Assembly (NCBI GenBank): GCA_013178305.1
Contig: JABLXB010000001.1
Location: 490,516 to 554,515 of the forward strand
Reading direction: 5' to 3'
DNA length: 64,000 nucleotides
Source: Bacillota bacterium
GTDB taxonomy: Bacteria > Bacillota > Sulfobacillia > JABLXB01
The position numbers were made by a program, and so were the translations under genes. Positions 1 through 2,888 of this stretch are shown piece by piece. The number at the start of each line of letters is the position of its first letter. Within the stretch, counting starts at the first letter, position 1. Below the pieces are notes generated by a model, which saw nothing but the letters and a program-made list of their open reading frames with translations, searched no databases and had not been told where the DNA came from.

Positions 1-630
1 TGCCATTTCGAGCCCGTCGAGCACATCCAGATGGGCATGGTGGCGCCGCTGGTGGTGAGGCCCCTCATCGAAAAAAACCCCGCCTACGCGGGCAGGAAGT
101 TCGCCTACAACGACACAGCCACCGAGTTTGACCGGGAATACCTCGTTTTCCTGACGGAGCTGGACACGGACCCGCACAACCTCGTGGCGAGCGTTCAGAA
201 ATTCGACTGGACCGAATACAAACCCGAGTACTGGCTGCTGAACGGCAGGTCGTACCCGGACACAGTCAAGCCCGACAACGACCCCGCCCTCCCGCAGCAG
301 CCGTACTCCTCGCTGATAACCGCGGTCGAAGGGGAGAGAGTCCTGCTGAGGTTCATCAACCTTGGATTCCAGCAGCACTCGGTACAGATCCTCGGCATTC
401 CCATCCGAGTGGTGGGCCAGGACGCCCAGCGGCTAAGGGGGCTTGGCGGCGAGGACCTGTCCTACTGGAAGAATGCCCTGTACTTCGCCCCCGGGCAAAC
501 GGTTGACGCGATATTCACGGCGCCGGAATCCGGCATCTATCCAATGTACAATCGAGGTTACCATAAAAACACCAATTCGGGCCAGGGGTTCGGCGGGATG
601 GTCACCGAGGTGCGGGTGCTCAGCAGCTAG
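1..630 (+). CDS. Two-domain multicopper-oxidase-like protein, 5' end outside the window
   Basis: The reading frame is open from base 1 to the TAG at 628-630, so the N-terminus lies upstream. The visible part begins in the end of a first cupredoxin domain with CHFEPVEHIQMGM, a Cys-His-x5-His-x4-Met type-1 copper ligand set seen in bacterial multicopper oxidases. A second cupredoxin domain follows (roughly residues 50-209 of the visible part), but its usual histidine motifs are lost: the HxxHxH position reads QHSVQILG and the terminal ligand loop has only an isolated His. It is a clear paralogue of the two genes after it: shared YWLLNGR, PDNDPALP and GGM blocks. The substrate is unknown. An electron-transfer or oxidase subunit is likely; whether it works alone cannot be judged without its start. 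Confidence 0.8.
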   Translation, partial: CHFEPVEHIQMGMVAPLVVRPLIEKNPAYAGRKFAYNDTATEFDREYLVFLTELDTDPHNLVASVQKFDWTEYKPEYWLLNGRSYPDTVKPDNDPALPQQPYSSLITAVEGERVLLRFINLGFQQHSVQILGIPIRVVGQDAQRLRGLGGEDLSYWKNALYFAPGQTVDAIFTAPESGIYPMYNRGYHKNTNSGQGFGGMVTEVRVLSS

Positions 631-710
631 AAAGACGGATGGCGGCAGACCGTCCCGGGCCGGCGCTGGCGCCGACAGCCCTGGATGCCGGCAAGAGGGA
701 GAGATTCGCG

Positions 711-1874
711 ATGGCTACGATAGACCTGTGGGTTAAGGACGGCCATTTCAGTACCCCCGACGGCAACAGCATTTATTTCTGGGGCCTTTCAAAGACGGCC
801 GGCGGTCAGGCCCAGATCCCCGGACCGCATATTGTCGTCAGGCAGGGCGAGACGGTTACGGTCAATCTTACAAACACCCTCAATTCCGAGCCTGTCTCAA
901 TATGCTTCCCCGGCCAGCCACAGGTGACGGTAGGGGGCAACCCCGCCCAGCCCCAGTACGGCCCCGGGGGGAGCCTGCTTTCGTTTACGAACCATGCCCC
1001 ACCGGGCGGAGGAACGGTCTCGTACACGTTCACACCCAACCGCCCGGGGACTTTCGTCTACGAGAGCGGGACCAGCCCACAGACACAAGTACCCCTCGGG
1101 CTCTATGGCGCGCTGGTCGTCCGGCCGGCGGATTACGACCCGGATGTCGCCTCGCGGAAGACGGCATACGGCGCGGGCACAGCGACGGAGTACAACAGGG
1201 AGTACCTTCTGATAACCAACGAGGTCGACCCCGACCTCCACTATGCCGTGGAACAGGGCAGGCCCTATCCAGTCCGCAAATTCAAGCCGCGCTACTGGAC
1301 GCTCAACGGCCGCTGCGCGCCCGACACGATGCTGCCCGACAACGTGCCGTACCTCCCCCACCAGCCATACGGGGCCATGGTCATGGGCGTGCCCGGTGAG
1401 AAGATCCTCATTCGCATGGTTGGCGCCGGCATAGACAATCACCCACTCCATACCCACGGGAACCACACAAGGGTTGTGGGGCTCGATGGGCGGCTCCTGA
1501 GGAACGGCTCCAGGGATCTGTCGTTCAAGCGGTTCACCGTGCTGGTCGAAGCCGGCCAGACCTACGACCAGATCTACCAGTGGTTCGGGCTCGGCTACAC
1601 GCCCGAGAACCCGATCCCGACCACAATGCCAAACCTCAGGAACCTGGGGATCGGGGATGCGGGCTGGACCATGTGGAGTGGGAGCCCGTACCTGGGGGTT
1701 AAGGGCGACATCCCCGTGGGTGTCGTCTCGTTCAACGAGGTCGGAGAATACCATTTAATGCTTCACGCACACGAAGAACACAAGATCACCAACTGGGGCG
1801 AGTTCCCCGGGGGGCTAATGACGATGATAGCCATCTACCCGTCGCTCGGCTCCGGAGTGGGGACGCTGGAGTAG
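711..1874 (+). CDS. Cupredoxin/multicopper-oxidase-like protein with ligands only in domain 2
   Basis: This is a 387-residue protein starting at the ATG behind GAGGGAGAG; a longer reading from 639 has no ribosome site. No signal peptide is visible (MATIDLWVKDG). Domain 1 has lost copper ligands: where the upstream paralogue has Cys-His-x5-His it reads YESGTSPQTQVPLGL, and the usual HxH reads SICFPG. Domain 2 keeps HPLHTHGNH (about residues 244-252) and HAHEEH (about 353-358), but Ala replaces the type-1 Cys. An insertion of about 40 residues lies between these motifs. A normal blue-copper site is therefore impossible in this chain alone, although a type-2/type-3-like cluster could form with a partner. 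It sits 80 bp after gene 1 and 15 bp before gene 3, so one operon is likely. Confidence 0.8.
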   Translation: MATIDLWVKDGHFSTPDGNSIYFWGLSKTAGGQAQIPGPHIVVRQGETVTVNLTNTLNSEPVSICFPGQPQVTVGGNPAQPQYGPGGSLLSFTNHAPPGGGTVSYTFTPNRPGTFVYESGTSPQTQVPLGLYGALVVRPADYDPDVASRKTAYGAGTATEYNREYLLITNEVDPDLHYAVEQGRPYPVRKFKPRYWTLNGRCAPDTMLPDNVPYLPHQPYGAMVMGVPGEKILIRMVGAGIDNHPLHTHGNHTRVVGLDGRLLRNGSRDLSFKRFTVLVEAGQTYDQIYQWFGLGYTPENPIPTTMPNLRNLGIGDAGWTMWSGSPYLGVKGDIPVGVVSFNEVGEYHLMLHAHEEHKITNWGEFPGGLMTMIAIYPSLGSGVGTLE

Positions 1875-1889
1875 AAAGGAGAGACTCAC

Positions 1890-2888
1890 ATGGCTCAGGT
1901 TTTGAGGAGTCTCTGGGTAAAGCAGGGTACCCTCTCCCTGCCAGGGACCAGCGTGCCTTTCTGGGGGTTCGCAACCTCGTTCGCAGGGGCGCCGAGGCTC
2001 CCCGGCCCTGTGATCGAGGCCACCGTCAGGGACACAGTGATCGTGGTGCTGCGAAACTGCAGCATCCTCATTCCGGCATCATTGATATTCCCCGGCCAAC
2101 ACAATGTACGCGCCATGCGTCCGGGATCGGGATGGCGCCGGGCCGCCCCGCAGTACAGCGGCGGAGAGATGATCTCGCTCACTGACTTCCTCGGGCCTGA
2201 CTCAACTGGGAGAATCAGGTACAGGTTCACGGCGACAAGGCCGGGGGTCCACCTGTACGAAAGCGGGACCAACCCCGAAAACCAGGTCCAAATGGGATTG
2301 TACGGAGTGCTGATTGTCCGGCCCATGGGGCACGATATCCCGTACACCCCGAATTACCGAACGGCCTACGGCGCAGGCACCGGCTCGAGGTTCGACGTCG
2401 AACACCTGCTGGTGCTCGGTGAGGTTGACAGCCAAATGCATGCGGCTCTGGGCCAGGGCGGCGGCTACGACACACTCAGATTCGCGCCCGATTACTGGAT
2501 GATCAACGGAAGGTGTTACCCCGACACCATCAAAGCCGACAACGACCCCGCCCTGCCGAGCCAACCGTACGGATCGGCAATCACGGCGAGGGTGGGGCAA
2601 AGACTCTTGCTCCGGCTGGTCAACGCGGGTTTTCTCCCCAATACGATGCACTTCGGGGGGCTCGTAGGCCGGGTCGTGGGGACGGACGGGTTCGCACTCC
2701 GCTCGCGGGACGCGGACGGCACATACGAGAAGGCAGCAGTTACGCTGGGCCCCGGGCAGACCTTCGACGTACTGTTGAGGCCCCAGAATACGGGGGTATA
2801 CTATCTCAGGGCGCGCGAGTACAACCACGTCGTGAATAACGACACGTTCCCGGGCGGGATGATGACCAGGCTGACGGTGACCACCTAG
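1890..2888 (+). CDS. Cupredoxin-fold paralogue with no recognisable copper ligands
   Basis: This 332-residue protein starts at an ATG behind AAAGGAGAG. It has the two cupredoxin-like domains of its neighbours, with matching blocks LYESGTNPENQVQMGL, YWMINGR, DNDPALP and FPGGMM. Every position that holds a copper ligand in a functional multicopper oxidase is substituted: the domain-1 HxH reads SLIFPG, the Cys-His loop reads YESG, the HxxHxH reads NTMHFGG, and the final loop keeps only an isolated His. No signal peptide is visible. It is the third gene of a tandem triplication. A structural subunit of a mixed oligomer, or a spore-coat-type protein, fits but is inference. Confidence 0.75.
   Translation: MAQVLRSLWVKQGTLSLPGTSVPFWGFATSFAGAPRLPGPVIEATVRDTVIVVLRNCSILIPASLIFPGQHNVRAMRPGSGWRRAAPQYSGGEMISLTDFLGPDSTGRIRYRFTATRPGVHLYESGTNPENQVQMGLYGVLIVRPMGHDIPYTPNYRTAYGAGTGSRFDVEHLLVLGEVDSQMHAALGQGGGYDTLRFAPDYWMINGRCYPDTIKADNDPALPSQPYGSAITARVGQRLLLRLVNAGFLPNTMHFGGLVGRVVGTDGFALRSRDADGTYEKAAVTLGPGQTFDVLLRPQNTGVYYLRAREYNHVVNNDTFPGGMMTRLTVTT

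Follow-up and report, generated by a model that had tools for sequence, protein, structure and literature searches.

The window analysed here is a stretch of 64,000 nucleotides (G000:C1:490516-554515), and the DNA upstream of it was read as locus L006. Four genes follow one another on one strand with short gaps, in the order large gene, P1, P2 and P3. The large gene (L006:10902-15422, same strand as P1-P3) encodes a protein of 1506 aa with SdrD_B, CarboxypepD_reg, TIG and beta-helix-like regions. P1 is a two-domain cupredoxin of 334 aa (L006:15442-16446; N-terminus MAEVKKRFGATDG). Its start lies 375 nt 5' of the window, and its C-terminal 209 codons occupy positions 1..630 (+; ORF, Pfam). P2, a two-domain cupredoxin of 387 aa, was placed at 711..1874 (+) in an ORF that is open from 639; its start is likely the ATG at 711 of the conserved MATIDLWVKDG, and not 639. 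P3 (1890..2888, +) is a two-domain cupredoxin paralogue of 332 aa without a copper-ligand set, as judged by its ORF, Pfam and the ligand alignment. The preliminary description had placed the three ORFs in the same way, all on the + strand (P1 1-630, P2 639/711-1874, P3 1890-2888). Cu-oxidase families of Pfam matched P1, P2 and P3 (Cu-oxidase_2/3 in P1). The feature of two tandem cupredoxin domains with the multicopper oxidase (MCO) fold is met, as indicated by these matches and, for the P2 part, by VIA alignments to 2zwn and 3g5w with Z of 30.

Division of the copper ligands

In two-domain oxidases, adjacent protomers supply the trinuclear His residues, one through its domain 1 and the other through its domain 2, and type C denotes those with the type-1 copper in domain 1 (PMC13151041). 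A phmmer comparison aligned the motifs of P1 and P2 with the segments that hold the ligands in two such oxidases, 3g5w and 2zwn. We take 3g5w (Nitrosomonas europaea blue copper oxidase) and 2zwn (metagenomic laccase) to be type C, partly from their sequences. As found in the alignment, domain 1 of P1 carries a full type-C copper set, HTIHWHG plus HCHFEPVEHIQMGM, and its ligand columns read H,H,H,H,C,H,H,M, which is complete. The second motif besides HTIHWHG in this domain is YHCHFEPVEHIQMGM. The motif (H)CHFEPVEHIQMGM lies at 1..39 (+) and is conserved in 53 of 54 cassettes; it provides the type-1 ligands Cys (1-3), His (22-24) and Met (37-39) and a trinuclear His (4-6), all on the + strand. 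The remaining trinuclear His residues of P1, together with HTIHWHG, are encoded just 5' of the window start.

In the ligand-column alignment, trinuclear His residues were absent from domain 2 of P1, domain 1 of P2 had no ligands, and P3 had neither copper-ligand set. Domain 2 of P2 has all four trinuclear His residues, in NHPLHTHG and LHAHEEH. In the sequence and ligand tables, these correspond to HPLHTHG at 1440..1460 (+; His at 1449-1451 and 1455-1457) and to the HAH of HAHEEH at 1764..1772 (+; His at 1764-1766 and 1770-1772). The type-1 Cys position of P2 is Ala in the window and Ser in most relatives. No chain at the locus has a complete MCO ligand set (ligand table), and P1 domain 1 together with P2 domain 2 makes up exactly the eight His and the Cys/His/His/Met of a type-C oxidase. 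The division of ligands among P1, P2 and P3 is certain. The preliminary description had claimed this split from the truncated P1; the upstream sequence of the gene added HTIHWHG, the rest of the domain-1 ligand set, and with the complete P1 the claim was not only confirmed but became stronger.

Distribution, history and neighbourhood of the cassette

A search with the P2 alignment, using one genome per species, gave 28 loci in Bacillota, Actinomycetota and one Acidobacteriota. The Bacillota included Desulfallas, Desulfotomaculum, Peptococcaceae, Thermincola, Ca. Fermentithermobacillaceae and others, and the Actinomycetota included Nocardioides, Kribbella, Terrabacter, Phycicoccus and others. 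The gene order P1-P2-P3 was found in 28 of the 28 loci, with a frameshifted P3 in L068. With the window (29) and two sets of 12 and 13 from further genome searches, 54 cassettes were scored. Domain 1 of P1 had all eight ligands in 53 of these 54; the exception was L062, a short metagenome contig, where P1 has Leu at one trinuclear position. The type-1 ligands H, C, H and M were present in domain 1 of P1 in all 54 and absent from P2 and P3. All four trinuclear His residues were observed in domain 2 of P2 in 53 of 53 readable cassettes, L105 being cut by a contig end. In the scored cassettes, the trinuclear His columns of P1 domain 2 were empty, and P2 domain 1 and P3 had at most one stray His. 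Of the eight trinuclear His residues, P1 domain 1 thus has four and P2 domain 2 the other four, with no set in P3, and every complete cassette consists of three separate ORFs. P2 was present in 18 of 398 Bacillota genomes, and P1 and P3 were also present in 18 of the 18 (P1 of G123 lies on a separate contig). The preliminary description had proposed to look elsewhere for this gene trio and its ligand losses; they exist in 54 cassettes of three phyla, and the random variation of ligands between homologous clusters that the description named as a refutation was not seen. Because the ligand pattern recurs in 54 cassettes, it is not due to chance.

Several related loci were also observed. Some Actinomycetota carry two divergent whole cassettes with the same ligand division in one genome: L102 (G445, the same genome as L051, Kribbella) and L103 with L104 (G656). 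A separate single-gene relative of about 500 aa with both ligand sets intact was found in two genomes that also carry the cassette, G028 and G046 (L039:5601-7148 and L040:5529-7145), and it shows the form of an undivided relative. A two-gene relative with the same complementary split lies at L121:5840-7881 (-) in the acidobacteriote G1080. The ligands of one gene are restricted to the domain-1 set (HSIHLHG, YHCHIDTALHMERGM) and those of its partner to the domain-2 His residues (MHYHG, LHTH). No third cupredoxin was found near the pair, which is possibly a second, two-subunit version. In Kribbella, a CopC/CopD fusion gene for copper handling (L059:11752-13572; Pfam, one Actinomycetota locus) lies 3' of the cassette, separated from it by a gene of 158 aa without a Pfam match. 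Genes resembling this downstream pair also follow the cassette in L060.

In a tree made with the ligand columns removed, P1, P2 and P3 each formed one clade (SH-aLRT 99, 86 and 83), and P2 and P3 were sister clades. Each paralogue clade had the same main split, between Bacillota and Actinomycetota/Acidobacteriota rows. The tree was made quickly, and some of its branches are long. The single clades and the common phylum split suggest, most simply, that the division arose once, before the copies of those lineages parted, and that it was inherited or transferred as a unit. The dN/dS values of P1, P2 and P3 were 0.05-0.28 in seven close pairs, which indicates purifying selection, also on P3, so that none of the three is a pseudogene family. 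P3 is the fastest-diverging paralogue. In the analysis of per-domain conservation, P1 domain 1 was the most conserved domain in three of four comparisons, the exception being the Acidobacteriota comparison, and P2 domain 2 was not consistently the most conserved and not the highest across phyla. Apparent frameshifts were noted in P1 of G046 (L037:9664-10740) and in P3 of G060 (L038:7600-8725).

Three broken cassettes were found. In G102, P2 is wholly missing, and P1 and P3 are still full-length. The ligand columns of this P1 are H-Y-E-H-C-Y-H-M, so that three of the four trinuclear His residues are lost and all four type-1 ligands are kept. The fetched G102 locus also has no large gene, and the change in P1 may therefore be just general decay. 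G102 is a single P2-less case, and it is the sole genome of its order and class in the genome set. In G419, P1 and P2 were lost together and P3 was kept; in G224, fragments of P1 and P3 remain in broken frames. Apart from the broken G224 locus, no cassette keeps the trinuclear half of P1 without P2, and no cassette with P2 and without P1 was found among those scored. Such joint keeping and loss of the two halves would be predicted for a shared site.

The large gene is also linked to the cassette. Of 50 loci tested, 46 have a homologue beside the cassette, which encodes a beta-rich protein of 1500-1800 aa of surface type; G102 is one of the four exceptions, and the other three lie at or close to the end of a contig. 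In some Acidobacteriota, the large SdrD/beta-helix protein forms fusions with members of the cassette: with P1, in frame, in one genome (L108:5857-12726, -), and with P3 in six cassettes (L115-L120), where P3 forms the N-terminus of proteins of 2500-3600 aa that match the large protein. These fusions argue for a single physical complex that includes the large protein, P1 and P3.

Structure models and known multicopper oxidases

In L046, P1, P2 and P3 are in one frame, so the natural read-throughs were folded as a single chain using AlphaFold. The P1-P2-P3 read-through gave pLDDT 52 and pTM 0.36 with 10 sequences, too low for use, and the P1-P2 read-through gave pLDDT 80 and pTM 0.82 with 40 sequences. 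The VIA alignment of the P1-P2 model covered only the P2 half, which matched 2zwn with Z 30.7 (2.5 Å, 280 residues) and 3g5w with Z 30.2. The best full-length matches of this model were ceruloplasmin, factors V and VIII and Mnx (TM 0.5-0.61, 7-9 Å; Foldseek). Factor VIII A1-A2 alone (4bdv_A) matched equally well, and P2 therefore appears to follow P1 in the ceruloplasmin manner. A trinuclear interface of the kind proposed requires the opposite neighbour order, P2 then P1, and the fused model, which does not decide on the interface, is a real but weak point against it. The 27-residue linker and training bias both favour the sequential P1-P2 order in a fused model.

A segment specific to P2 (GLGYTPENPIP...SGSPYLGVKGDIP...NE; 1584..1745, +) is absent from P1 and P3 and has many invariant residues and the conserved sequence SGSPYLGxKGDIP. 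It was modelled with low confidence in P1-P2 (residues 649-698), which could be expected if a partner surface is missing. We infer that this segment is a candidate interface or partner-binding loop.

We compared the cassette with known oxidases. It shares the fold, the ligand motifs and the position of the type-1 copper in domain 1 with the type-C two-domain oxidases 3g5w and 2zwn. However, known type-C oxidases are homotrimers with all ligands in one polypeptide and three sites per trimer, whereas the ligands of the cassette are spread over different gene products, which predicts one site per trimer. Six-domain MCOs have been described as products of a triplicated two-domain ancestor in which redundant sites were then lost, the survivor lying between domains 1 and 6 or between domains 2 and 3, with the latter in bacterial and algal proteins (PMC3600357). 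Like ceruloplasmin and the six-domain MCOs, including MnxG, the cassette has six cupredoxin domains in total, with one trinuclear site kept and two equivalents lost as far as its residues tell, although formation of the site has not been shown. When read as P2-P1-P3, it would put the site between domains 2 and 3, the same as in the bacterial and algal proteins. In contrast to the six-domain MCOs, it consists of three separate chains, and the feature of a six-domain single chain is not met. Bacterial six-domain proteins have type-1 copper in domain 2 (PMC3600357), whereas the single type-1 site of the cassette is on the P1 side of the interface.

MnxG has been described as the only characterised MCO that requires accessory proteins, and MnxE and MnxF have no known homologues (PMC5622069). 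The Mnx complex (MnxE3F3G) is also an MCO that needs several gene products, but MnxG alone carries the oxidase, whereas the accessory chains of the cassette are paralogues with active-site ligands. By analogy, the cassette would work like a type-C oxidase or ceruloplasmin, yet it is a member of neither as defined, because the full ligand set is found in no single chain and six domains are never joined in one. Descriptions of a heteromeric, ligand-split or heterotrimeric MCO were not found in the open-access literature, which was only partially covered, and this is weak evidence.

The putative heteromeric oxidase and its alternatives

The recurrence of this division of parts across dozens of unrelated bacteria makes it most likely that the enzyme functions solely as an assembly of the different proteins. 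On these grounds we consider it quite probable that P1, P2 and P3 are subunits of one obligately heteromeric MCO with one shared trinuclear site; this rests on sequence, and there is no direct evidence of assembly or activity, both of which are inferred. The preliminary description had proposed a hetero-oligomer that needs different subunits, an idea that the 54 cassettes and the deletion in G102 support well at the level of sequence and that has not been shown structurally. The ancestor would have been a two-domain oxidase of type C, normally active as a homotrimer in which a trinuclear site lies wherever domain 1 and domain 2 of neighbours meet. After gene triplication, P1 alone may have retained the domain-1 ligands and the type-1 copper, and P2 alone the domain-2 half of the trinuclear site. 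The present complex would be a 1:1:1 ring, P2-P1-P3, with one trinuclear site formed by four His residues of P1 domain 1 and four of P2 domain 2. These would be H83, H85, H125 and H127 of P1 and H247, H249, H352 and H354 of P2. This shared site would adjoin the type-1 copper of P1, and P3 would fill the third place. Electrons from the substrate are predicted to enter at the type-1 copper of P1, and O2 would be reduced at the shared site. Phenols, Fe(II), Mn(II) and Cu(I) are the usual candidates for MCO substrates. The large beta-rich protein encoded just upstream may scaffold the complex on a surface, which in endospore-forming Bacillota would probably be the spore surface.

The location of the complex is likewise an inference. 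Inspection by eye of the proteins of Bacillota cassettes revealed no apparent signal peptide in any of them. The preliminary description had noted the lack of signal peptides in P2 and P3; this holds, but it does not distinguish them from P1, since P1 in this genome has none either. In the Actinomycetota and Acidobacteriota inspected by eye, P1 often has a twin-arginine-like N-terminus and P2 and P3 have Sec-like ones, and these export-like N-termini suggest that the complex is extracytoplasmic there. The suggestion of a spore-coat location thus remains plausible for Bacillota, but not for the Actinomycetota and Acidobacteriota versions with their apparent export signals. SpoIVA is encoded in G000, which is therefore probably an endospore former. 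SigK-like sites (AC-N15-17-CATANNNTA, one -10 mismatch allowed) precede the large gene in 8 of 15 loci of the Bacillota set, where shuffles gave 1.9, and the strict CATANNNTA lies upstream of this gene in 5 loci, with 0.9 in shuffles. The motif was chosen only after the sequences had been inspected, and the window's own genome has no such site. Loci with SigK-like sites or strict -10 matches were L043, L044, L046, L048, L049, L095, L099 and L101. Overall, a position on the spore surface in Bacillota is only slightly favoured.

The stoichiometry of the complex is also inferred, and we favour the 1:1:1 ring including P3 with some reservation. P1 and P2 may instead assemble in another ratio (e.g. 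P1:P2:P2 or P1:P1:P2), with P3 being part of the scaffold and not of the catalytic ring. The rapid divergence of P3, its persistence without P1 and P2 in G419, its fusion to the large protein in L115-L120, and the two-gene split in G1080 (L121), where a third cupredoxin is not nearby, would all fit such an arrangement. However, P3 stands beside P1 and P2 in nearly every cassette under purifying selection, and its retained two-domain fold and its sister relationship to P2 suit a place in the ring. Moreover, the large protein is also fused to P1 (L108), so the fusion is not specific to P3. We regard another stoichiometry as unlikely, though it cannot be set aside.

It is less likely still that the proteins have separate functions without a shared site. 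P1 could then be a blue (type-1) carrier of electrons or resemble nitrite reductase as a type-1/type-2 enzyme, and P2 could bind copper or act in a chaperone-like way. This reading would fit the full type-1 site that P1 has by itself, a weak match to Cu nitrite reductase among the profile hits of P1, the survival of P1 in G102 with the type-1 site only, and the fused model, which does not bring both half-sites to one interface. Against it, in 53 cassettes P1 keeps its four domain-1 trinuclear His residues, both HCH flanks among them, and P2 keeps the four complementary ones, and the only intact cassette with one half missing is G102, where the P1 half was also lost. Relaxed, degenerate paralogues that lost ligands at random and are complementary by accident can practically be dismissed: frameshifted members (P1 of G046, P3 of G060) and a few broken cassettes (G102, G224, G419) exist, but the pattern is identical in three phyla, the clades have single origins and dN/dS is 0.05-0.28, so that random decay or pseudogenes are ruled out by conservation and dN/dS.

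The favoured reading as a whole, an obligate heterotrimer (P2-P1-P3) found in three phyla, with a single trinuclear site, a ligand-free third subunit, a giant surface scaffold and an association with spores in Bacillota, seems to us reasonably likely. In the usual scheme of MCO evolution, six-domain, ceruloplasmin-like chains arose when a two-domain homotrimer was triplicated and fused, and sites that had become redundant were lost (PMC3600357). If our reading is true, an unfused heteromer that has already shed the redundant sites would exemplify this intermediate logic in nature and be a living unfused counterpart of ceruloplasmin, an "unfused ceruloplasmin". It would also be a rare enzyme whose active site is built from halves on paralogous subunits, with a built-in control, as there would be no oxidase activity before all partners meet. 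The cassette would then represent an oxidase family, present in three phyla, whose genes are readily mistaken for those of three copper proteins that are unrelated or degenerate.
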